A DNA stretch of 47,016 nucleotides from an uncultured Candidatus Melainabacteria bacterium (GTDB lineage: Bacteria; Cyanobacteriota; Vampirovibrionia; Gastranaerophilales; Gastranaerophilaceae). The position numbers were made by a program, and so were the translations under genes. Each line of letters begins with the position of its first letter. The first letter of the stretch is position 1. Positions 23,304-37,288 of this stretch are shown here, one piece after another. The DNA lies in assembly GCA_949741915.1 (NCBI GenBank), contig CATJOM010000095.1, forward strand, positions 1-47,016, given 5' to 3'. The notes under the pieces are model-generated. The model was not told where the DNA came from. It did no database searches and worked only from the letters and a program-made list of their open reading frames with translations.

Positions 23304-26300
23304 TTACTCCCACCATTCCAATATTATTTTGCCGTTTGAGCCTCTGCCGCCTTCGTTTTCGTTCTTTGTTATGTTGGCTTGGGAGGTTGAATTCACTTGG
23401 CCCATGTCTCTTATGGCGGCACCTCCGCCCCCTGAAGCGTATCCTGGGTTTTCAGCGCTTTTTCCGCTGCTGTTATCTCCTGGGGTGCCCCCTTCTCCGC
23501 CTATGCCGCTGATTAATTTTTCTACTGTGCCTGAAACACTTCCACTATCTGGGTTTGCAGCATTTGTTGCAATTTCTACTTTGATACCTGCAAAGTTTGC
23601 ACCCTCTCCCCCTGTGAAACCCTTGGCATCACTGCCTTTTGCGCCTTTTATACATTTTTTGTCGCGGCTGAAATCTTTGCCTGTGCCAACAGTACAGATT
23701 TTATCCCCTGGAATGCCGCCCCCGGTACCATTTTTCAGTGTTCCGTCAGAATTTACGCTAACACTTGCGCCTCCGCTTCCGCCAAGCGCCTTGATGTCTC
23801 CAAACACTGTGTTTCCTCCTTTTTTGGCTTCTATGAGCGTGTTATTCAATACGTATGCCCCTCTTCCTCCTCTACCTATTCTGAAAGGTATCATTTGTCT
23901 GCTTTTTGCCTGTATTGTATAGGTGAAAACGTTGCCACTAGCGCCTCCCCCTCCTGCGCCCGTCCCTGCTAATTTGTATGAATTTGAAGCTGTATCCCAA
24001 TATTTATTCCAGCTGATTCTTGCATATCCTCCGGAACCAGTGCCTCCGTTGGTTAAACCATATCCGCCGCCCCCTCCACAGCCGTATCCGCTTGCATTGC
24101 CGCCCGTTGGATAATCTGTTGTTCCGCCTTTTCCGGGTGTACATGTGCCTGTAAATGGTGTTGTTGTTGTGCCGCCATCTCCGCCTGTAGAGCCGTTTGC
24201 AAATGTTATATTGCCTGTTTGTATTGTGTTACCAGCGGTTTTGCCTACTGTACTAGTGAATCCTGAAACGCCTATGTGTCCATAGTTTGCAGGATTACCA
24301 TTTGTTATGGCGCCAGCCAAAGAGCCATAGGGATTGCAGATTGTGCCGCTCCAAACGCCTCCAAATAAGCCATGCTGGCTGTTTTGCGGTGTTGTTAAAA
24401 TTGTGTTTGTTCCTCTTAATATTTTTGTAATCAGTGGCGTTACATTTGTATCTGAACCCTGCCCTGTGGTTGGATTCACGATTGTGCCACTATTGTTTAT
24501 TGAGCCTGGCATGCCTCCAGTGCCGCCTGTACCTATTTTTACACTCAGTGCCTCATTTTGTACCACATTTATTTTTTGAATAGGTACAATATGAGCAGCA
24601 CCGCCACCTGAGCCTCCTGGGCCATGAGTCAGGTAGGAAATTCTCAAGGCGCCTGGCTTTCCGTTGTTTCCGGTCCAGTCATTCCATGTGTCTCCACCGT
24701 TGCAGTAGTTGTCGCCAAAAATTGTAGATATTTTTCCACCTGAAACGGCCGAACACAGGTAGGATGCATTACTGGCACCGTTTGCACCGCCGTATCCTCC
24801 ACCCCCACCCCCACCTGCACTGCAGTTTGAATTGCCGCCTGTGCAAAAACCGCTTGCGGATGATGAATTAATCCTTGTAGCAGAAAGCCCGCTTTTGCCG
24901 CTGCCTTTGCCAATGGTACTTGTCTTATAACCTACACCCCCACCCCCACCGCCTAAGCCATTAAAGCCCCCTCCGCCGCCGCCACCCCCTGCACCATAAC
25001 CTCCACCGCCGCCTCCGCCTCCGCCTGCAGGGTTACCATAGTCAATATTTCCGCCACCCCCTCCTCCTCCACCGCCGATTTGAAATATTATAGAATTTTC
25101 ATTTGTTCCAGCAGCATTTGTTATGGTTGTTGGTCCGCCACCTCCGCCCCCTGTGCCAGAGCCTCCATCATCTTGGGTCCAGCTGGTGCCCCCGGCTCCT
25201 CCGCCTGCCCATACCGTACCCCTTCCGCCTCCTCCAGCATAATTGTTTCCATTGTTTCCATGGCTTCCGCCACTGCCATTTGCAAAAACTGTGCCAATTG
25301 TGCCATTGCCACCACTGCCGCCATTTGCGCCTATTGCCCCATTGCCTCCTTTTCCACCATATGCACCGCCCGCAGCTCCTGCATGGGTCCATCCACCTCC
25401 ACCGCCGCCTGAATAAAATCCACCATTATTGGGGCCTGCGCCGCTTCCACCACCCCCTCCGCCGCCAGGGATTTTTATATAAATTGTACTAGGAATTGTT
25501 ATGGGCACATTTTGTACATAGCCACCGCTTCCACCGCTTGCAGCTTGTGCACAACCCCCAGCACCTCCGCCTCCTGCGCCCCCGCCCCCGCCACACGCTG
25601 TTACAAGTACGTTTTTGTTTTGTGCAATTGCTGGCACACTCCAGCTGGTTTCACCTTGTGTTTTAAAATCAACATCTGTAAGTTTTTGTCCTCCTGCGCC
25701 CCCGCCAGCACCTCCTGATATCAGTGTTGCTTCAATATTTCCTGTCATGGCAGGCACAGTAAATGTGTTCGTGCTTCCGGCTGTTGTATATTCAGTGAAA
25801 CCCGCAGTTGGTGCCGTACCTCCGCCCCCGCCAGCGCTTATTACAGTTGCTTTTATGTAGCCGTTGAATTTGTTTCCTGGAACCTCAAATTCACCTTCAC
25901 AGTATTCACTGCCATCAGTGTCTATTTTTATATCAGCGCAATCTGCAGAACCAAATTCAATCTCCTGGGTTTTTCTTGTTGTCTCTGCTGTTCCGATATT
26001 GCCTGTCACGTTTATGTTTTCACTGAATTTCTTTGTCATAACAGGTGCCAACGCTGCAAGCAATAATGATGCAATAAGCAGCGCCATAAGCATTTCAACG
26101 AGGGAGAAAGCGACTTGCTTCTGATTTTGTTTGGTTTTATTGCTTTTCTTTATTTTATGGTTGTCGTATGCAGCCGTATACTCTTGAAAAGCAGACATTT
26201 TGCGCAAAGTCAGAGAATTTTGGCAACCGCAAACAAATAAATTCAGTATAATGGTTGCATATTGGGATGTGAAATTTAAATATTTTTCTAATGTTTTATT

Positions 26301-26534
26301 CTTATTTCCTTTAGGCGCTGAATGCCGCACAATGGATTTATAATCCTGTGTTTGCCTTTCTTTGCTGCTTTTTGGTAAGGGTATCTTATCAGCTGGCGCT
26401 GAATTTTTCCTAAAAGCCCTGCTGATTTGAACTTGCCTTCTTTTCTTCAAGACCTCTATTTTAGTACAAAATAGGTCTTTTTTGAGAGTTTTTAGGATTT
26501 TACCGTGTAATGATTTTGTTGACTTAATTGTCAT
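23304..26534 (-). CDS. Glycine-rich prepilin-like surface protein with long leader
   Basis: Of 1076 aa, about residues 138-170 form a type IV prepilin-type motif and transmembrane helix: VA|FSLVEMLMALLIAS, cleavage after Ala142, Glu147 at +5. Behind it lie several modules of VPA...N...GGGGG, extremely Gly-rich, ending in strands such as GALRISY, YARISW and KIILEWWE. These resemble glycine-rich domain proteins of filaments and fibres. The first ATG (26534) has a good AGAAGGAA site; a later Met113 has none. The leader is therefore about 142 residues, basic, far longer than usual. The local GC rise comes from Gly codons. It should be exported and assembled as a pseudopilin or adhesin; partners are not in the window. 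Confidence 0.85.
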   Translation of the reverse strand: MTIKSTKSLHGKILKTLKKDLFCTKIEVLKKRRQVQISRAFRKNSAPADKIPLPKSSKERQTQDYKSIVRHSAPKGNKNKTLEKYLNFTSQYATIILNLFVCGCQNSLTLRKMSAFQEYTAAYDNHKIKKSNKTKQNQKQVAFSLVEMLMALLIASLLLAALAPVMTKKFSENINVTGNIGTAETTRKTQEIEFGSADCADIKIDTDGSEYCEGEFEVPGNKFNGYIKATVISAGGGGGTAPTAGFTEYTTAGSTNTFTVPAMTGNIEATLISGGAGGGAGGQKLTDVDFKTQGETSWSVPAIAQNKNVLVTACGGGGGAGGGGAGGCAQAASGGSGGYVQNVPITIPSTIYIKIPGGGGGGGSGAGPNNGGFYSGGGGGGWTHAGAAGGAYGGKGGNGAIGANGGSGGNGTIGTVFANGSGGSHGNNGNNYAGGGGRGTVWAGGGAGGTSWTQDDGGSGTGGGGGGPTTITNAAGTNENSIIFQIGGGGGGGGGNIDYGNPAGGGGGGGGGYGAGGGGGGGGFNGLGGGGGGVGYKTSTIGKGSGKSGLSATRINSSSASGFCTGGNSNCSAGGGGGGGYGGANGASNASYLCSAVSGGKISTIFGDNYCNGGDTWNDWTGNNGKPGALRISYLTHGPGGSGGGAAHIVPIQKINVVQNEALSVKIGTGGTGGMPGSINNSGTIVNPTTGQGSDTNVTPLITKILRGTNTILTTPQNSQHGLFGGVWSGTICNPYGSLAGAITNGNPANYGHIGVSGFTSTVGKTAGNTIQTGNITFANGSTGGDGGTTTTPFTGTCTPGKGGTTDYPTGGNASGYGCGGGGGYGLTNGGTGSGGYARISWNKYWDTASNSYKLAGTGAGGGGASGNVFTYTIQAKSRQMIPFRIGRGGRGAYVLNNTLIEAKKGGNTVFGDIKALGGSGGASVSVNSDGTLKNGTGGGIPGDKICTVGTGKDFSRDKKCIKGAKGSDAKGFTGGEGANFAGIKVEIATNAANPDSGSVSGTVEKLISGIGGEGGTPGDNSSGKSAENPGYASGGGGAAIRDMGQVNSTSQANITKNENEGGRGSNGKIILEWWE

Positions 26535-27435: not shown

Positions 27436-27860
27436 CAAACGCTGAATTTTTTATGGTTTTTAGGATGTAGGCCCTGTCTTTGTGGTAGAATTTATTTTGT
27501 AAAGTTTTGTGAAGAAAGATATACATTACTGTAAGCAAAGCGCAAATTAAAGTTACAAGCTGAATTTTTGCAAAATATTTTAACCTCTCTTTTTCTTATA
27601 AATTGTCGTATTTGCCAAAATTTCTTTTTGCAGTTAGGATACTATTATTCCCTAAGAGTGTTGAAGTTTACGGATTTCAGCAGAATGGGGCTTCAAATCG
27701 TCGGCAATGTCATTTTAAATGATTCAGCTTTGCGCAGTCTTTCTTTATTCTGGCGCAGATACCGCCTGTTAACGTATATTTTATCAGGTTAAAGTTTTTG
27801 CCGTTTTTTATAGACACAGTGTGCCGTTGCCGGATTCCATTCTTTTGACTGGCTTTTTAG
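27436..27860. other. Gap leading into the cassette array
   Basis: No supported gene. A 74-codon frame at 27568-27792 lacks a ribosome site and family resemblance. Composition becomes G+T-rich on the + strand towards the right end. Confidence 0.35.
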
Positions 27861-27964
27861 GTGTGCTCCAGGGTCAATGTTTTGCACGTTGATAATTTTA
27901 AGGTTTGCACTGGTTGTGTGCACTTGCTGGCTGTGCTCCAGAGTGCTATGCTTGTGTGCGCTTG

Positions 27965-28191
27965 CTGTGCGACGCTGGTGCGGCAGGCTCTGTGCGGTGT
28001 GATTGGGGCCCTGGCGGCTGTGCGGGCTCAGCGGATGCCCACTGCTACCCGCTTGATGTGTGGTCTGGTGTTATGGTTCACACTGGGGTGTATTGGGCTG
28101 TGCCTCATTTGTCCGAAGGTGTCGCAGTACTTACGGGTGCTTGCGGTACCTTGGCTTCCTCGCATATACTGCTATGTCGGCGCCTGTGTCG
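27965..28191 (+). repeat. Cassette 1 (frameshifted, variant end)
   Basis: Starts LCDAGAAGSVRC, then GGCAGSADAHCYP and VWSG. The end block is the variant TCGGCGCCTGTGTCG (AMSAPVS), shared only with cassette 2. It is out of frame with the start, so a small indel lies near 28150. Confidence 0.7.
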
Positions 28192-28419
28192 AGGGTTTGT
28201 ATATAGTCTGCGGTGGTTAGCTTGTACTTTTTGACCGGGTTTTGTGTGTTTTACAGCTGGAGGTTTTGTAGAGCTGTGTCGTCACATACTATGCTTGCCA
28301 TATGCTTATTAGTAGTGCCTTTGCCTTTTTCCTCCTTGTTCGGCAGGGGTTTTGCGGTTTTTCTGGCTGTAGGCCTCTGTTTTATGTCAGCCTGTTAGCT
28401 TTCCTCAAGTTGTGTGCAG

Positions 28420-28650
28420 CTGTGCGACTGGGGTGCAGCAGGCTCTGTGCGGTGCTACTACTTGGCTGGCGGCTGTGCGGGTTCTAATGGTGGCTCCTGC
28501 TGGCCGTACATTGTATGGTCAGGCAGTTTACAGGCCCCAGGGTTTTACTTTGCCCCGTTGCATTTTGCTGGCGGCAGCGTTGGTTATACCAGCGCTTGCG
28601 ATACTGGCTACTGTATTTCTGGTACCGCTTTTTCGGCGCCTGTGTCGTGG
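28420..28650 (+). repeat. Cassette 2 (open, variant end)
   Basis: LCDWGAAGSVRCYY, GGCAGSNGGSCWP, VWSGS, YTSACDTGYC, ending AFSAPVSW. Open from start to end block. The end block replaces SVRC with SAPV. Confidence 0.75.
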
Positions 28651-28723
28651 TTTTGCTGTAGTGGTGTACACTGTTTGCAGGTGTGGTGACTTTGTTTTTG
28701 CCTGTGTGCGTGGCGCCTAGCGG

Positions 28724-28933
28724 CTGTGCGACCAGCAGTCGACAGGCTCTGTGCAGTGCTCACATATTGCTTGTGTGGGTGCTTTTCAGGGCGGCTGCTT
28801 TCCGTATTCCGTATGGTCTGGCGCAGCAGCTTCTGTTGGTTATTACTATAGCTACGACTTAAGCGGTGGTCGGTTGTTTGAGTATAACGGTCCTGCTGGT
28901 CATACGCAGGTGTTCTCTCTTTCGGTGCGCTGG
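28724..28933 (+). repeat. Cassette 3 (open)
   Basis: LCDQQSTGSVQC, a shortened ACVGAFQGGCFP, VWSGA, YYYSYDLSGG, ending SLSVRW. Open throughout; the final Cys is Trp. Confidence 0.75.
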
Positions 28934-29026
28934 CTTGTGTCTTTTAGGTTTTGGTTTCCAGAGTGCGTTTGGTGTTCTTCTAATGTTGCTTTGTATTATA
29001 GGTCTCGAGTTCCACGTTGTTTATAG

Positions 29027-29307
29027 CTGTGCGAGGGCTGCGCAGGATTCTGTTTGACGAAGTGACTAATTGTTGTGTTGGGCTTGAAGTAAGCACCTCG
29101 GCAGCAGCTATGGCGAGGGCTGTGTAGGTATTATCAGGCCCTGTATGCTGTGACAGCTTATCCCTTAGTTGTAGTGAGGCCGTCTCTCCTGTTTGTTGTT
29201 TTTATGTGGTTTGAGGTACTGTTTCAAGTTAAGGTGCTGTATCCGTACGTATGGGTGTGCTCTCTATACTTCTCTGATGTGATTATCGCCCATTTTCGGT
29301 GCGCTTC
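29027..29307 (+). repeat. Cassette 4 (degenerate)
   Basis: The 5' block is recognisable (CTGTGCGAGGGCTGCGCAGG) but a stop follows within 13 codons. A GGGC-like block appears near 29110 and the end block TTTTCGGTGCGCTT at 29294-29307. The middle is scrambled. Confidence 0.5.
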
Positions 29308-29531
29308 CTGTGTGTCTTCTGGTTTGTATATATCCCAAGTTGCCAAGTACTTTGGTAAGTATGGAGCTTTGAGACTGTTTCCTTGGGCACATTGGTTTGT
29401 GGGCGTATTGTTTATGTGTCTTTATTTTTGTAGAGTTTTTCTTGCAGACTTATGCATGTATTCACTGTAGGTGTTTCTGTGGCTGTTTTCTGTCATCCTC
29501 TTTGTGCTGTTGTTTGGTGCAAGCTTTACAG

Positions 29532-29732
29532 CTGTGCGACTGGAGTGCTGCAAATGCCCTGCGGTGCGATGCTCGTGGCGGAGGCTGTGCGGGTTCAGCT
29601 AATGATGGCTGCGATGCGCATATTTTTTGGGGTGCTAAAGTGGGTGGATTACCTGTTAGTGGCCATTTTAATATTGGCGTTTTATCTGTTTCTACAGATT
29701 TTAACACGTTTTGGGCTATTTCGGTGCGCTGG
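29532..29732 (+). repeat. Cassette 5 (open)
   Basis: LCDWSAANALRC, GGGCAGSANDGCDA, FWGAK, ending AISVRW. GSVRC has become NALRC. Open from first to last block. Confidence 0.75.
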
Positions 29733-29870
29733 TTGCTTCATCCTTGGTTATAGTGTTTGGTGTACATATTTTTTATGTGGTCTATCTGTGCTCGTCCTTT
29801 GGCTTTGTTGCACTGTGTTTGCAGGCTTTGTTTGGTAAAGTTGTCCTATTAGCTTTTGTACTGTTTGCAG

Positions 29871-30074
29871 CTGTGCGACAGCCTTGCAGGTTACGGCTCT
29901 GTGCAGTGCCTATGGGGCAGTGGCAGCTGTGTAGGCTCTTACAATAGCCACTGTAATCCGCATTACCTGTGGTCAGGCAGTGTGCAGTCCGGCAGTGTAT
30001 ATCATGGTAGTGCCTTAGGCAGTGGCGATTTTAGCGCACACAAGGACTCCTCTGTATTTCCCTTTTCGGTGCAC
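29871..30074 (+). repeat. Cassette 6 (open)
   Basis: LCDSLAGYGSVQC, GSCVGSYNSHCNP, LWSGS, ending FPFSVH and a stop two codons later. CGC of the end block reads CAC. Confidence 0.75.
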
Positions 30075-30422
30075 TTGTTATAAGTATTTATTGGCTTAGA
30101 ATTTACTTGGTATTCATTTGCGTTTTAGTACTTTATGGAGTTGTTGTTTTTATATAGTGTCTGTATTATTGGGTGTTTTGGCGGTTGGTTGTTTAGGTGG
30201 TAGTTTACCGTTCATTGTTGCACTGAGTTGCTGCCGTGTAATCTTTGTTTGGTGCTGGGTGCCGGTGTATAGGTTGCTCTTCCTAGGTGCACGGTTATGC
30301 AGCGCCCAAGCTGCAGCTACGGTCTATTTAGCGCAAGGCGTTAGACTGGGTAGTTGCAGTGTACGCCGTTTGTGTGTGGTGGCGTATGTAGTGGTTTCTG
30401 CTCTCTGGGTGGAGTTACTACT

Positions 30423-30650
30423 TTGTGGATGGGAGAGTTTAGCGACGTTTCCTCTGTGCAGTGTGGCACGCTGGTTGCTGCCTGTGCGGGCTCAGATGGC
30501 GGCTCCTGCTACCCGTATCATATGTGGTCTGGGTCATCCTATGTTGGCGCTAGCTATTGGGTACCTGGGCTGCACAGTGGTAGCTGGGATATGGGCTTTG
30601 CCTGTGGTTCTGGCTATTGTGGTTTCGCCTATGCCTTTTCGGTGCGCTGT
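30423..30650 (+). repeat. Cassette 7 (open)
   Basis: The start is diverged (LWMGEFSDVSSVQC). It continues ACAGSDGGSCYP, MWSGSS, FACGSGYCG and ends YAFSVRC with the exact end block. Confidence 0.75.
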
Positions 30651-30762
30651 TTACTTCTTTCTTGGCTGTGGTGTACTGTTTCTTACGGGCTTTGGGGTTA
30701 GTGGAGTGTTTCTCATGTTTGTTTTACTGTGCTTTGGCAGGTTTGTTTACCTGCTCTATGTC

Positions 30763-30966
30763 CTGTGCGACCACTCAGCAGCAGGCTCTGTGCGGTGTGC
30801 ACGCCTTACTGGCGGCTGCCTGGGTGCTACTGGGCCATGTTACCCTAGTCATATATGGGATAGCTATGTTCTTGATGGGCATTACTACTATACTGACCTG
30901 GTGTCGGGTGTTTTGTCGGATCCGTTGGGCAGGTATAATTCTCCTATTTATGCCTTTTCGGTGCGC
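30763..30966 (+). repeat. Cassette 8 (open, ends SVR-stop)
   Basis: LCDHSAAGSVRC, GGCLGATGPCYP, IWDS, HYYYTDLVSG, YAFSVR. The end block reads GTGCGCTAG, so the terminal Cys codon is replaced by a stop. Confidence 0.75.
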
Positions 30967-31213
30967 TAGTTATCTGTGCTCTAAGACGAGTTAGAGGAGT
31001 GTTGCGTTCATGGTAGGCTTGCTCTGGGTAGCTATCTAGCTGCCCGAGTTTGCACTGTTGGTTTTGAGTCGTTATAATATTTCGTTATGCCTCCAGGTTC
31101 TTATGCGGTTTAATTTGTGCATCAAGAAGCTGATTTTAGCTTTGCAGGACTTTGTTTGCAGACTGATTAAAGTTCGCTTTGACTGTTAGTGCAAGTGTTC
31201 TCAGGAATGGTGC

Positions 31214-31432
31214 GTGAGCTGCATCTGTATTTTGGGCTCTGTGCAGTGTTATGAGTGGATTGGCGGCTGTCCAGGCTCAGCGAACAGTTGGTGTTATCCT
31301 CAGTTGATTTGGTCTGCCACTGCAAGGTCTGCAGGTGAGTTTTATGCCCCATATCTGTCTAGTGGCACTATGAATTTTCATGGTTCTTGTGGTGTTGGCT
31401 ATTGTACCCTAGGCTGGGCCTTTTCGGTGCAT
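31214..31432 (+). repeat. Cassette 9 (open)
   Basis: CICILGSVQC, GGCPGSANSWCYP, IWSAT, SCGVGYC, ending WAFSVH. The 5' block is diverged and CGC reads CAT. Confidence 0.75.
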
Positions 31433-31510
31433 CTGTTTCTATAAGGCGTTGTTGGCTGGGCAGTGTATTGGCTTTATATGCTGCCCTGTTGGTTTTTATA
31501 CTGGTTTCTT

Positions 31511-31702
31511 ATATTGTATGTAGCTTCTATGCAGTGTCAAGCTAAGTCAGGCGGCTGTGCAGGTTCTGACAATAACTGCTGCCATCCGCATCACTATTGG
31601 GCTGGCTTGGTTTCTTCTGATAAGCGCCATGCGAATTGGTTTGACACAGGGGTTTCTGGGGGTGGCCTTTATTCTTTTCGTAATGCCCATTCGGTGCGCT
31701 GT
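31511..31702 (+). repeat. Cassette 10 (open)
   Basis: YVASMQC, GGCAGSDNNCCHP, YWAG, GVSGGGLYSF, ending AHSVRC. It shares one continuous reading frame with cassette 11. Confidence 0.75.
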
Positions 31703-31780
31703 GCTTTATGCCTTGAAGCTGCTGTGTGCAGTATTTTGCTGCATTTTGAAATGTTTCCTGACGCTGTTTTTTGCATATAT

Positions 31781-31960
31781 CTGCAGCAGTACTGCTTGGT
31801 TGTATATTCTGCTGGCTCTTACAATGGCCGCTGCTACCCGTACCCTGTGTGGTCTAGCACGTCTGCAGGTGGCGTGGACTATTATAACCAGGAGTATATG
31901 GGCGGCAGTTTCACCACAAGTCTTGTTCGTGCCTGTACCTACGCCTTTTCGGTGCGCTGC
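31781..31960 (+). repeat. Cassette 11 (5'-shortened, twin of cassette 21)
   Basis: Lacks the GSVRC...GG segment. It continues AGSYNGRCYPYPVWSS, GGVDYYNQEY and YAFSVRC. About 84% identical in DNA to cassette 21 by hand alignment. Confidence 0.8.
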
Positions 31961-32089
31961 AGGCGTTGTATCTTGTAGTGCTTCCAGGGGTTGTATTGCA
32001 CCAGTTTTACATTGTGTCTTCCTGGTTTTGCAAATGGCTTTTTATACTGTATTAATCTAAGTTTGCATCACTCTTTGTGAAACGTTTGG

Positions 32090-32269
32090 CGTACAGCTGG
32101 CTGTGCGGGCTCTAACACTGGTGCTTGCTGGCCTAATGCGCTTTGGTCTATTTCACCCAAAGAGGGTATACTTTATTATGACTATGCCCTAGTGTCGGGA
32201 AGCTTTGTTCCTGATACTTGTCAGGGAGTCCTTGGTTGCGGCACTACCTATCCCTTTTCGGTGCGCTGT
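32090..32269 (+). repeat. Cassette 12 (5'-shortened)
   Basis: Begins at AGCAGSNTGACWP, then ALWSIS, LYYDYALVSG, TCQGVLGCG, ending YPFSVRC with the exact end block. The LCD/GSVRC segment is missing. Confidence 0.75.
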
Positions 32270-32403
32270 TTTTATGGCTTTGTTTGATGTCATATTTGTG
32301 CTGTACAGCATACTGTGTTGCACTGGAAGGTGCTGTTATATACTAGCCTAGTTTTAGATGCCTGCGGAGTTTTGTATCTTTTGCTCAAGTCAGCTTCTTA
32401 TAG

Positions 32404-32649
32404 CATTGTATTATTGCTATTGGCTCTGTCCGGTGCTTTGAGTCTGGTGGTATGTGTGCGGGCGCCTCCTCTGGTACTAGTTGGCCTAATAACTGCTACC
32501 CGCGCAGTATATGGTCTGCGTCGCCCTCCCCGTCTTATGGAGACTTTGTCTTTCACACTGGGTTCTTGTATAGTGGCAGCCTGGTGCATGATTATTGTTA
32601 TGCTTTAGGCAGTGGGTGTCCAGGCCCTCTTGTCTTTTCGGTGCGTCGC
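32404..32649 (+). repeat. Cassette 13 (open)
   Basis: IAIGSVRCFESGGMCAG, GTSWPNNCYP, IWSAS, ending LVFSVRR. The LCD block is lost. The end block reads GTGCGTCGC. Confidence 0.75.
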
Positions 32650-32781
32650 TCGCTCCTTGCCTTGCCGCTATGTTTAGTAGTTTAGTGGCAGAGCTCTGTT
32701 TTGTGCTCGGATATGGCTTACTGTGTTTGGGTTTGGCCCCGTATGACTTGTTTATACTAACTTTTGAGACATGCTGTACAG

Positions 32782-32985
32782 CTGTGCGACTGGTATGCTG
32801 CAGGCTCTGTGCGGTGCGATAATGGTTGGCGGATGTGTCCAGGTTCCATTGATGATAGGTGCGTTCCCTTTGACGTTTGGACCTCTACACCCTCTACGTC
32901 TGCAGATTACTATAGAGGACACTTGCAGAGTGGTGTTTTTGAATATTGGTATTTTAGTGGGCTGTTTCCCTTTTCGGTGCGCTGG
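32782..32985 (+). repeat. Cassette 14 (open)
   Basis: LCDWYAAGSVRCDNG, MCPGSIDDRCVP, VWTST, DYYRGHLQSG, ending FPFSVRW. Both boundary blocks are well preserved. Confidence 0.78.
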
Positions 32986-33128
32986 CATTCTATATAGTAC
33001 TGTTATTGTGCGTATACTTGCCAGAGTTGTAATTTCTATGCTTATAAGCCCGTATGTTTTTAATAGTGAGCACTGGTTTTGGATTTGATATCTTGGTTTT
33101 AGTTTATTTGCTGTTAGCCGTGCAGATT

Positions 33129-33310
33129 TTGTGTGATGCAGCATCCTGGGTGGCGGCTGTACAGGCTCTAGCAACGGCTACTGCCACCCAGGTGACTTCT
33201 GGTCAAGCTCACTTATAAGCGCCTCAGCTGGATATCATGATTTCTGGCTTGGAAATGGAAGCGTTGGCGGTGGCGCCAGGGTGGTTACTTACGCCTTTTC
33301 GGTGCGCTGT
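33129..33310 (+). repeat. Cassette 15 (internal deletion)
   Basis: LCDAA is followed directly by a GGGC block in a different frame, so the GSVRC segment is deleted. It continues GGGCTGSSNGYCHP, FWSSS and YAFSVRC, open to the end block. Confidence 0.72.
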
Positions 33311-33382
33311 GCTTTGTGGCTTTTTAATGCAATTGACTTTCGTTACTAGGACCTTCTTTGTTATAGCTGGGTTTATTAGTGT

Positions 33383-33583
33383 TTGTGCAGCCCCTTATCT
33401 GCAGGCTCTGTCCGATGTTGTCCAGTAAGTAGCTGTGTAGGTTCTGTAAATAACTATTGCAATCCAGACACTTTCTGGCTGTACACTCCAGGAGCAGACG
33501 GCTACCACGACAGAGGGTATCTTTACATAGGCTATATTGGCTCAGGCATGTATCATGACACTGACGCCTTTTCGGTGCGCTGT
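33383..33583 (+). repeat. Cassette 16 (open)
   Basis: CSPLSAGSVRC, SSCVGSVNNYCNP, FWLYT, YIGSGMYHD, ending DAFSVRC with the exact end block. Confidence 0.77.
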
Positions 33584-33698
33584 GTCTTGGGCTTTATATT
33601 TGCTAATAATATAGTATTATGGTCTTTGGCTTTGTATGATAAGTTGGTCTACTTAAGAGTTGTGTTTACTGTTTGCTTGTGTATTGTATCCCCTACAG

Positions 33699-33899
33699 CT
33701 GTGCGACGCCAACGCGGCAGGCTCTGTGCAGTGCTATTGGCACTATGGCTGCGCAGGGGCTGAGGCTGGTTTGTGCAGTGCAAGGCAGATGTGGTCACAG
33801 TCTAAACTTTCTGTTAATACCTGCAATACTGGGTATCTTAGTGGTGGTTGGTTTGGTTTGATGCCAGATGCTTGTACGTACGCCTTTTCGGTGCGCTGG
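33699..33899 (+). repeat. Cassette 17 (open)
   Basis: LCDANAAGSVQCYWH, GCAGAEAGLCSA, MWSQS, GYLSGGWFG, ending YAFSVRW. Canonical CAGCTGTGCGAC start. Confidence 0.78.
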
Positions 33900-34221
33900 T
33901 TGTTTTTGCTCTGTTGTTACGGATGCGGGTGTAGCCGCAAAGCTCTTTTTGCCCTCGGTTTACGGCATACTGTTAAGGCTTTGCCTGCAGCTTTTGACCT
34001 GCTGGCAGGCATACATTTTGTGCGTTTTATTGTATATAGTAGTTAGTATTGTCTTCGCTATAGTGCTCGTTGTGATTTTGCTGTGTGCAGCTTTTGCTTG
34101 CTTGTTGCTTTAGCAGTGGGTTGTTATAGCTGTTATTTATTCGGCTGGGCATTGCAGTTACTTGTTTGGTATGCTGCTCATCCTAGGTTGTAGTTTTGGC
34201 ATGGCGGTTTTGCAATGCTAT

Positions 34222-34458
34222 CTGTGCGACTACCAGCTAGCAGGCTCCGTACGGTGCTACTGGTTATCGGGTGGTTGTGCGGGCTCTTCTATTGGCAGTG
34301 CATTCATTGGTAATTGCTATCCGAGCCATTATTGGTCTTTTACTCCACAGACAGCAGGTGTTTACCGGTCGCCTGTATTGCTTGGAGGTGCCGTTAATAC
34401 GCATGATGCTTGCGTTGTGGGCTATTGTCCTATCACTCTTGCCTTTTCGGTGCGCTGT
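34222..34458 (+). repeat. Cassette 18 (open, longest)
   Basis: LCDYQLAGSVRCYWLSGG, then an expanded GSSIGSAFIGNCYP, YWSFT, DACVVGYCP, ending LAFSVRC. It shares a continuous frame with cassette 19. The hydrophobic residues before it come from T-rich spacer. Confidence 0.78.
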
Positions 34459-34566
34459 TTAGCCCTCATGCTGTTGCCGTGTAGGAGTATGGTGATAAGT
34501 TTTTGGCCTAGGCTGTGGCGCGCTGTTATGGCTTTGTTTGTTGTTTTTAGCTTACGGCGTAGCTTC

Positions 34567-34764
34567 TGGTGCAAGGTTTGCTCTGCAGCCTCTGTGCGGT
34601 GTGGCAATGCTATTTATTGTTCAGGCTCGTACGATGGCTGTCATACTTATGCTTTGTGGTCTTATACAGTATCTTTGTATGCGGCCTTCTGGGATTTTTG
34701 GCTCTCAGGAGGGGTGTTTTATACAGACGCGTCTGCTTATGCACGAGCCTTTTTGGTGCGCTGT
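34567..34764 (+). repeat. Cassette 19 (open)
   Basis: WCKVCSAASVRC, YCSGSYDGCHT, LWSYT, LSGGVFYTD, ending RAFLVRC. In the end block TCG reads TTG. Confidence 0.75.
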
Positions 34765-35005
34765 GCCATCAGGAATTGTAATGTTTTTCTAACCCGCTTT
34801 ATTAGTACCGACTTTAGGTGGCTTGAAATGTTTAAAGCCACAATACAAGTATGCTTACAATCACAAGCATCTCAGCTCTTTTGTTGTTCGTTATTGCCTG
34901 AAATACATACACAGGTTAATAGTTTTTTGCTTGTACTGTCTAGTCATATTGGTTTAATCTGTGTTTACAAGTTGGCTATAGTTAATTTAGCTGCTGGCAG
35001 TTGCG

Positions 35006-35215
35006 CTGTGCGACGCCTATGCAGCAGGCTCTGTGCAGTGTGTTCAGTGGGATGGACATTGCTCTGGTGCTGGTACTGATGGCGGTTATCTTAACTGGTG
35101 TTTTCCTTATATTTTGTGGGGTGCACAAAGCGGCTCGGATTATTGGCGCTACTGGCTGAATACTGGAGTATTTAGTATCAGCAGTTGGCCTATGGGCAGC
35201 GCCTTTTCGGTGCGT
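35006..35215 (+). repeat. Cassette 20 (open)
   Basis: LCDAYAAGSVQCVQWDG, a GTDGGYLNWCFP insertion-like segment, LWGAQ, DYWRYWLNTG, ending SAFSVRL. Confidence 0.77.
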
Positions 35216-35309
35216 CTGTGGGCGCACTATGTTTAGTTCCCTGTGTCACCTTGGGTTTGATATGCGGTACTATAGGTATATTAAGAATGTCATTGTCTAA
35301 AACTTCTTT

Positions 35310-35477
35310 ATGGGCGTATGCAGCTGCTCTGGCTCTTACTATACCCACTGCTACCCGTACCCTGTGTGGTCAAGTACTTCTGCAAGCGGGGTAGACTATT
35401 ATAACCAGGAGTATGTGGGTGGCAGTTTTGCTACAAGTTTGGTGCGTGCTAGTACTCACGCCTTTTCGGTGCGCTGT
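35310..35477 (+). repeat. Cassette 21 (5'-shortened, twin of cassette 11)
   Basis: CSCSGSYYTHCYP, VWSSTSASGVDYYNQEY, GGSFATSLVRA, ending HAFSVRC. By hand it has 23 base and 8 residue differences from cassette 11 over 49 codons. Confidence 0.8.
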
Positions 35478-35718
35478 TACCTCTTTGTCTTGCAGTTAGT
35501 TTTAGTGGTCGCGTAGTCTGTTAACTTTTTGCTTTTAGCTGCTACGCACTGTGTCTTTTGGGCTTGCTACAGGCATGTTGCTTCTGCATGGTATTCACTA
35601 GGGCACTGGTGTATTATGTACGCCCGGGTTATGATTGCTTGGGATTGATACGATATACCTTTATTTAGTATATGCTTTGACTTGTTTTTAAGGCGGATGC
35701 CATACTTTGTACTTACTA

Positions 35719-35922
35719 CTGTGCGACTCTGAATCTGCACACTCTGTGCGGTGCGCTGAGCGTACAGCTGGGTGCGGAGGGTCTTTAAGTAATATTTGTT
35801 TTTCGCGTATTATCTGGGGCATACTTTCTACGAGTGGTATACCTTATTCTGGTCATATGTATTCAGGCTTCTTTGGAGTGTCTTCAGGCTATGACAAGCC
35901 GCGGGCCTTTTCGGTGCGCTGT
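35719..35922 (+). repeat. Cassette 22 (open)
   Basis: LCDSESAHSVRCAERTAG, CGGSLSNICFS, IWGIL, MYSGFFGVS, ending RAFSVRC with the exact end block. Confidence 0.77.
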
Positions 35923-36020
35923 TTGCTTATTGCTAGTGGTTCTTCTTCCCTGGAATTTGGCAGTGGCACGTTGTGTTGGCTTTATGGCTATGGTTAATAT
36001 GTGCTGGAACTTCAATGCTG

Positions 36021-36227
36021 CTTGTGCGGTTAAAGAGATGTGCTGACTCTTTGCAGTGCTACCACTTGGCTCGTGGCTGTGCGGGCGGTTCTAATACTAA
36101 TTGTGACCCATATATCATGTGGTCTGGCTCGTCTGCTAATGTTTCTTTATACTATTATTTTGCTTTTTCAGGCGGTTCATTTTCGCAGTCTTCTTATGCT
36201 GCTGGGCAGCCCTTTTCGGTGCGCTGT
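36021..36227 (+). repeat. Cassette 23 (open after a start-block frameshift)
   Basis: The start block TTGTGCGGT is out of frame. The downstream frame reads CADSLQCYHL, GCAGGSNTNCDP, MWSGSS, SLYYYFAFSGG and QPFSVRC. Confidence 0.74.
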
Positions 36228-36402
36228 TGCCTTATTGGTGTATTCAGTGCTCCGGCGGCAGCCTTTACTTTTGCTTTAGCTGCTACGCACTGTGTCTTTT
36301 GGTTCTGTGGTGGTTTTGGCATATTTTACAATATTTATTCTTATATATTATCATCAGCGTTACGCAATTGTTTGTGTTGCTGAAGGGACATTCTGTTTTC
36401 TA

Positions 36403-36612
36403 TTGTGCATGAAGGGTTCTGTGCAGTGTAGCAGTCTGAATGGCGGCTGTGCTGGTGGGTCTGGTGGTGTAGGCTGGCTTAATAGTTGCTACCCAAAGCA
36501 TATGTGGTCAGGCACTTATTCTTCCGGCTCTGATTACTATGACTGGCACTTGGATGCAGGAGTCTGGCGCCAGCAGGTGATAGTTTCTACTTATGCCTTT
36601 TCGGTGCGCTGT
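36403..36612 (+). repeat. Cassette 24 (open)
   Basis: LLCMKGSVQC, GGCAGGSGGVGWLNSCYP, MWSGTYSS, DYYDWHLDAG, ending YAFSVRC, then FRI and a stop. Confidence 0.78.
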
Positions 36613-36690
36613 TTTCGGATATGATTATCATATTAATTGTTGTCATCTTTTGGGTTTTGCGTTATTTGTTGAAGCTGATTTTATAAAAGA

Positions 36691-36852
36691 GGCTGTGCAG
36701 GCGCTTATGATGGCAACTGCTACCCGTACGTTGCATGGTCAAACACTCCTAATACCCAGCAAGACTATTATCGCGGGCATTATTTGGATGGCGGGCATTT
36801 TTATGATAACCCTGGCAATCCGCACAAGCGTATGTCTTATTCGGTGCGCTGT
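36691..36852 (+). repeat. Cassette 25 (5'-shortened)
   Basis: GCAGAYDGNCYP, AWSNTPNTQQDYYRG, HYLDGGHFYD, ending SYSVRCVWVLN. No ATG-led reading frame covers it. The extra VWVLN tail resembles the VRVLQ tail of cassette 26. Confidence 0.75.
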
Positions 36853-36883
36853 GTCTGGGTTTTGAACAATTTATTTTAGTCTG

Positions 36884-36998
36884 CAGTGCGACGTTCGTGA
36901 GGCAGACTCTATGTAGTGCTTATGGCGGGGTGGCGTCTGTGCTAGTTCTAACGATGGCAATCGCTACACGCGCAATGCAAGGTCTAGGTTCTGTCTAG
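36884..36998 (+). repeat. Cassette remnant, 3'-truncated with nonsense codon
   Basis: QCDVREADSM, then a stop in place of the SVQC glutamine, then GGVCASSNDGN. It breaks off near the WS block and has no end block. A decayed donor. Confidence 0.65.
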
Positions 36999-37063
36999 TT
37001 AGGTAGATGCTGCTCTTTGAGGGTATATTACCTGAGGCTTAATTTACTTATGTTTTAGGCAAT

Positions 37064-37288
37064 ATGCAGTGTTTTTCATCAGGCGCCTGTGCAGGCGCTT
37101 CCTATGCTACTGACTGGGCCGGTACCTGCTATGTTTACCATATTTGGTCTACTGGTTTGCGTGAAGATAATTGGCGCTGGGCGCCATATTTTGGCGATGG
37201 AGGACTTAGTCTGTATTCAGCCTGCGGCACAGGCTACTGCCCGTCTTCCTTTGCTGCTTCGGTGCGCTGTGTCCGGGTTTTGCAGTAA
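37064..37288 (+). repeat. Cassette 26 (last, with natural-looking C-terminus)
   Basis: MQCFSSGACAGASY, GTCYVYHIWST, SACGTGYCP, ending AASVRCVRVLQ and a stop. The SVRCVR tail is closest to the usual C-terminus of FISUMP-like domains. No convincing ribosome site precedes it. Confidence 0.72.

Follow-up and report, generated by a model that had tools for sequence, protein, structure and literature searches.

The stretch of DNA considered here, called the window, is 47,016 nucleotides (nt) long and represents contig C95 of G000, the draft genome of an uncultured Candidatus Melainabacteria bacterium, assembled in 126 contigs with breaks at arrays like the one described below. The window contains an array of short silent cassettes arranged head-to-tail (Table 1). 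Profile A1, which was built from 21 cassettes and used for a six-frame scan of the whole genome, recognizes 25 of them with good scores (E 5e-25 to 1.5e-9), together with one fragment. The original prediction of 26 or more cassettes on one strand with conserved landmarks was correct in the strand (+) and the landmarks, and its count is revised accordingly. Each cassette consists of about 68 intact codons with the pattern LCD..AGSVRC....GGCAGS....CYP...WS......Y...L..G........AFSVRC, and the spacing between cassettes is irregular, ranging from 255 to 808 nt. Invariant residues are G, C, W, and G in alignment A2 (23 window cassettes) and C, C, G, C, W, and S-V-R in A1.

The cassettes are silent by their anatomy. 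No start region or upstream protein is found around them, and about 370 upstream codons of the corresponding prepilin are present in no cassette. The reading frame is intact in more than 95% of the cassettes. All of the approximately 125 silent cassettes of G000 contain only 5 in-frame stops in 8196 codons, whereas the other two frames of this DNA have 565. This indicates that the coding frame is maintained, although the cassettes are not genes, and chance is excluded as the source of the cassette pattern.

These silent cassettes are distributed over 12 contigs: C95 (the window), C57, C80, C88, C66, C22, C47, C35, C102, C20, C45, and C63. The domain occurs in long open frames only on C26, C39, C68, and C82, and the proteins of the last three are glycine-rich, prepilin-like, and carry a diverged domain. 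The gene that matches the cassettes is located on C26. It starts with the prepilin signal AFSLVEMLMALLVASLLLAALAPVM, continues into the domain ...LQLCDYQPAASVRCYYLAGGCAGSNGGSCWPNYMWSGVIHYEGIDYTRAISVRCVQDTVST, and runs off the contig; its 3' half forms a 600-codon open frame at the start of contig C118. This gene is termed expressed because it is intact and has an export signal, as judged from sequence alone. An intact gene elsewhere in the genome, with a prepilin N-terminus and an LCD...SVRC domain, had been predicted and is the one on C26/C118. Its general N-terminal methylation motif is the sole likeness to the Neisseria pilin. The ends of C26 and C118 overlap by about 36 nt and diverge beyond them, so that the sequenced population contained two or more versions of this tail. 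Outside the arrays, the conserved cassette 3' end is found only in this expressed target and in a prepilin-like pseudogene (C88:28127-29500; L122:4128-5500), in which a stop follows the signal peptide and the domain reads ...SYSVRC.

It is important to compare the variable domain of the C26 gene with the silent cassettes. This domain (154 nt) is an exact patchwork of three cassettes from three arrays, with blocks of 37/37 nt from C80, 64/64 nt from window cassette 2, and 59/59 nt from C35. For the second population version, on C118, the match is with a cassette of C47 (60/61 nt). As a control, each of 124 silent cassettes was compared with the others; the longest exact matches had a median of 20 and a maximum of 30 nt. 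The coverage by 30-mers was zero in 122 of the 124, versus 95% of the expressed domain with its longest match of 64 nt. The exact blocks cannot be misjoins at shared sequence, because they are shorter than the contig-end overlaps of the assembly (about 99 nt). The variable part of an expressed gene does match array segments, one of them in the window, and the tails on C26 and C118 vary, in agreement with the donor library proposed in the original prediction.

Beside the expressed gene, contig C118 encodes bAvd and a reverse transcriptase (RT) of the type found in diversity-generating retroelements (DGRs). The RT contains GLPIGNLTSQ, in which IGNLTSQ corresponds to the DGR motif [IVL]GxxxSQ, as well as YVDD, and matches RVT_1 with an E-value of 4e-17. 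A tblastn search with the RT gave matches in 120 phage records, Bordetella phages among them. The bAvd protein matches PF22296 with 46.3 bits (cut-off 40 bits), and NCBIfam NF033474 (DivGenRetAVD) below the cut-off. Between G000 and G001, a genome of the same genus, the nonsynonymous divergence (dN) of the RT orthologues is 0.155 with saturated synonymous divergence (dS), and dN/dS of bAvd is 0.02, indicating strong purifying selection on both. Each of the three genomes with arrays has both genes next to the target. A six-frame profile scan for a template repeat (TR) near the RT was negative: neither C118 nor the upstream part of C26 has a copy of a cassette.

The same organization is found in relatives. 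The orthologous gene of G001 has the same neighbors (a gene series of the infB/rbfA/truB type) and is also broken in the domain. A single silent cassette matches both edges of the gene, with 55/55 nt at the 5' edge and 37/37 nt at the 3' edge; the next best values are 23 and 33 nt. In G117, a member of genus g53, the whole system is located within 13 kb of a 401-kb contig. bAvd is followed by the RT, the convergent prepilin gene, and an array of 31 cassettes, which recur about every 265 nt and are separated by conserved spacers of about 52 nt. The expressed domain of G117 is identical to cassette 27 in 212 of 215 positions, with 187 nt exact; the next best cassette reaches 75%. The array is found only in G117 within this genus, suggesting that amplification occurred at least twice or that arrays were lost repeatedly. 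Immediately behind the domain, GGTTCGC has lost one base (GGTCGC) both in G117 (L157:7676-7885) and in G137 of the same genus (L160:6177-6377), which shifts the remainder of the prepilin gene out of frame. The loss is also present in two silent cassettes of G117, and its recurrence might represent an on/off switch. A mirror image is seen in three genomes of genus g22 (G022, G255, and G301; loci L134 and L140-L143), where about 100 domain copies are located in long open frames, often in tandem within prepilin-like proteins of about 1000 amino acids (aa), with few short copies near the RT. The RT-adjacent copy of G022 was rejected as the TR of that genome, as the mismatches are not at its adenines.

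The RT orthologues of G018, G043, and G010, from other genera, look like working DGRs: the mismatches between TR and variable repeat (VR) fall on TR adenines in 15/15, 12/12, and 13/14 cases, respectively. G137 has the order bAvd, RT, prepilin, and one adenine-rich TR, whose adenines account for 20 of the 21 mismatches. This single TR occupies the exact place of the G117 array in the same locus order. In G198, 2-3 copies are located beside the RT. The cassettes of G001, of G117, and of contigs C47 and C80 of G000 carry a 3' flank of the TR type, GTCC(T/A/G)G..TTT, and not of the target type. The most variable codons of G001 are Asn (AAY) in 48% of cells, and AAY-rich variable codons are the usual make-up of DGR templates. 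The locus series from G137 to G117, the flanks, and the AAY codons suggest that the silent cassettes are amplified template repeats of a DGR. This origin is new relative to the original prediction, which had also missed about 100 further cassettes and the adjoining DGR-type RT and bAvd.

These features allow us to propose that about a dozen DGR-derived silent donor libraries, one of them the window array, very probably feed a single expressed prepilin-like surface protein. Cassette stretches, from a few tens of nt to nearly a whole cassette, would overwrite the matching part of the expressed variable domain, while the silent copies would remain in place. The cassettes would derive from the TR of the DGR (bAvd and RT) beside the expressed gene. 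A single adenine-rich template may have been multiplied into an archive in the genus of G000 and G001 and, in a related genus, in one species. Read-out by adenine mutagenesis of a single template would have given way to nearly faithful copying of many templates. Transfer from the cassette to the expressed gene is the direction suggested by parsimony (three partial donors, one recipient) and by the flanks, and the variation presumably alters the tip of a pilus or fiber. Four points weigh against this proposal. The comparison is one of end states, with no transfer observed over time. In G000, the expressed gene is broken at the variable domain, and its join consists of the 36-nt overlap and the reading frame only. 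The expressed copy of G117 is frameshifted just after the domain. In addition, all 46 adenines of the donor are unchanged in the exact tract of G117, unlike in a working DGR, so that the RT would not necessarily be involved.

The mode of copying could be assessed from the donor adenines. The BPP-1 RT in E. coli is reported to change 30.65% of adenines (PMC12875486). The TR/VR pair of G137 has 20/60 adenines changed versus 0/46 in G117 (Fisher p 2e-6). In all expressed/donor comparisons, for which the donors were chosen after the fact, 4/86 adenines differ versus 0/366 other bases (Fisher p 0.0012). Two of the four changes are at tract edges and one is 5 nt from a contig end; this bias is a hint only. 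The exact tracts contain 67 unchanged donor adenines, 21 in G000 and 46 in G117. Judged from these tracts, copying into the expressed gene is nearly faithful, which is compatible with gene conversion. The adenine-only changes, together with a selected RT and bAvd and no other template or target, are also compatible with low-error copying by the RT. The chances that the RT does the copying appear slightly better than even, and those of ordinary homologous recombination slightly below even. It is conceivable, though a little short of an even chance, that the RT and bAvd use RNA from any of the approximately 125 silent templates and copy it, almost without error, into one surface gene. A single-template mutagenic system would in this way have become a combinatorial archive, perhaps more than once.

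The same donor library could be read by RecA-type homologous recombination alone, as in pilE/pilS, with the RT and bAvd used elsewhere or rarely. This would agree with the 67 unchanged adenines and with the mosaic of three donors in one copy, which is typical of gene conversion. However, the RT and bAvd are located by the target in three array genomes and are selected, no other template or target is found in G000, and all four substitutions are at donor adenines (with the edge and donor-choice caveats given above). Recombination alone is a credible but less probable explanation.

A donor library feeding one gene should also be compared with the reverse direction, in which the cassettes would be an archive written from past expressed versions. 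Sequence identity by itself gives no direction, and retroelement copies could land anywhere. However, a single expressed copy would then have been the source of three different segments, each in another cassette of another array, and the cassette 3' flanks are of the TR type and not of the target type, which makes this direction improbable. Still less probable is an ordinary DGR, with the cassettes as many template repeats and the expressed gene rewritten with adenine mutagenesis. The RT, bAvd, and AAY-modal variable codons agree with it, and the single-TR relatives behave so, but at most 4/86 donor adenines differ versus 0.3065 expected per adenine (P 2e-9), and G137 and G117 differ as described above. 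That the cassettes are tandem genes in decay or an artefact of the assembly, and have no role, is suggested by a draft broken at arrays and by window spacers resembling decayed sequence, but is extremely improbable in view of the maintained frame, of exact blocks shorter than the contig-end overlaps, and of the replication on the 401-kb contig of G117.

The system was compared with three known ones. It shares with DGRs of the Bordetella BPP-1 type the bAvd and RT (GLPIGNLTSQ and YVDD) by the target, the AAY-rich variable codons and, via relatives, single-TR versions of the same locus with adenine-specific TR/VR mismatches. It differs in having 31 to about 125 template-like cassettes instead of a single TR, a mosaic from several donors, and copies nearly without adenine changes. 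It is not classed as a DGR, because the tests for a nearby TR and for adenine-specific differences were negative. The vls system of Borrelia has about 15 cassettes. The likeness to it is in the contiguous head-to-tail silent cassettes on one strand and the one surface-protein gene; the product of vlsE is a lipoprotein and no RT is involved, while here a prepilin and about 125 cassettes over 12 contigs are found. Like pilE/pilS of Neisseria, it combines a single expressed gene of the prepilin type with many partial, silent copies, segmental mosaics in the variable part, and short conserved ends, but the domain and bacterium are unrelated, the donors are from a DGR template, and an RT and bAvd are present at the locus. 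Both systems have been described, pilE/pilS in antigenic variation (PMC3899283, PMC12108084) and vls as a silent-cassette system (PMC2780311). The earlier comparison with pilS and vls is appropriate for the way of working, with membership no more than a possibility, and the best name is a DGR-derived silent-cassette system. No report of a comparable system was found in the open-licence literature searched. Mutagenic retrohoming and silent-cassette conversion, thought to be separate, are joined here in one locus, with living intermediates of one, 2-3, 31, and about 125 templates. This makes testable how a silent-cassette library arises, and also whether a DGR RT can be a faithful writer from many templates.

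The "lectin-like" fold suggested earlier for the cassettes (C-type-lectin-like, as in FISUMP/DUF1566 domains) is weakly supported. The cassette alone has no convincing match to a Pfam family or, by sequence, to the PDB, and its structure model is poor (pLDDT 51). Whole domains of relatives match Lcl_C (PF07603) with E 5e-5 and 23.9 bits, under the cut-off of 34.9 bits.

The window array is strikingly poor in adenine on the coding strand (0.155 in cassettes and 0.164 in spacers, versus 0.34-0.36 in the flanks). The value for T in the array (28000-37000) is 0.32-0.41; A and T are balanced in the flanks, so the asymmetry is restricted to the array. Changes between similar cassettes tend to C/T and A/G, and pairwise comparison gives no signature of adenine mutagenesis. 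Adenine mutagenesis was rejected as the cause of divergence of the G000 silent cassettes, as C/T differences are as frequent as A/G. Block duplication of the C80 array as the source of the window array was also rejected, since a few partner pairs seemed colinear but the full table does not bear this out. A search of phage DNA with the window array gave no match.

Table 1. Positions of the silent cassettes and of a neighboring gene in the window.
Feature	Position	Strand	Evidence
Whole array of silent cassettes (25 plus one fragment)	27965..37270	+	Profile matches, codon table
Cassette 1	27965..28156	+	A1 profile, E 1e-14
Cassette 2, donor of 64-nt exact block of expressed gene	28420..28620	+	A1 profile, exact match
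Block identical to nt 1149-1212 of C26 expressed prepilin gene, 64 nt	28443..28506	+	Exact match and control
Cassette 3	28724..28933	+	A1 profile
Cassette 4	29532..29732	+	A1 profile
Cassette 5	29871..30071	+	A1 profile
Cassette 6	30444..30650	+	A1 profile
Cassette 7	30763..30966	+	A1 profile
Cassette 8	31235..31429	+	A1 profile
Cassette 9	31523..31702	+	A1 profile
Cassette 10, without 5' end	31790..31960	+	A1 profile
Cassette 11, stop at 5' edge	32069..32269	+	A1 profile
Cassette 12	32416..32646	+	A1 profile
Cassette 13	32782..32985	+	A1 profile, E 5e-25
Cassette 14, stop at 5' edge	33125..33310	+	A1 profile
Cassette 15	33383..33583	+	A1 profile
Cassette 16	33699..33899	+	A1 profile
Cassette 17	34222..34458	+	A1 profile
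Cassette 18	34570..34764	+	A1 profile
Cassette 19	35006..35215	+	A1 profile
Cassette 20, without 5' end	35322..35477	+	A1 profile
Cassette 21	35719..35922	+	A1 profile
Cassette 22	36042..36227	+	A1 profile
Cassette 23	36412..36612	+	A1 profile
Cassette 24, without 5' end	36685..36852	+	A1 profile
Degenerate 5' cassette fragment with stop	36887..36973	+	A1 profile, E 0.5
Cassette 25, with TR-type 3' flank GTGTCCGGGTTTTG	37058..37270	+	A1 profile, flank comparison
Glycine-rich prepilin-like paralogue without cassette domain; neighbor, system membership not claimed	23304..26534	-	Open reading frame (ORF); N_methyl just under cut-off, Gly_rich_2

The paralogue in the last row of Table 1 belongs to a large family of glycine-rich proteins of about 800-1080 aa with nearly alike prepilin N-termini, which is also found on C39, C68, C82, C48, C116, C58, C69, and C91. 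Many contigs stop inside the conserved start of this family. An A-rich run of 52 bases is located at 42411-42463 of the window, just upstream of the ORF at 42514-43635.

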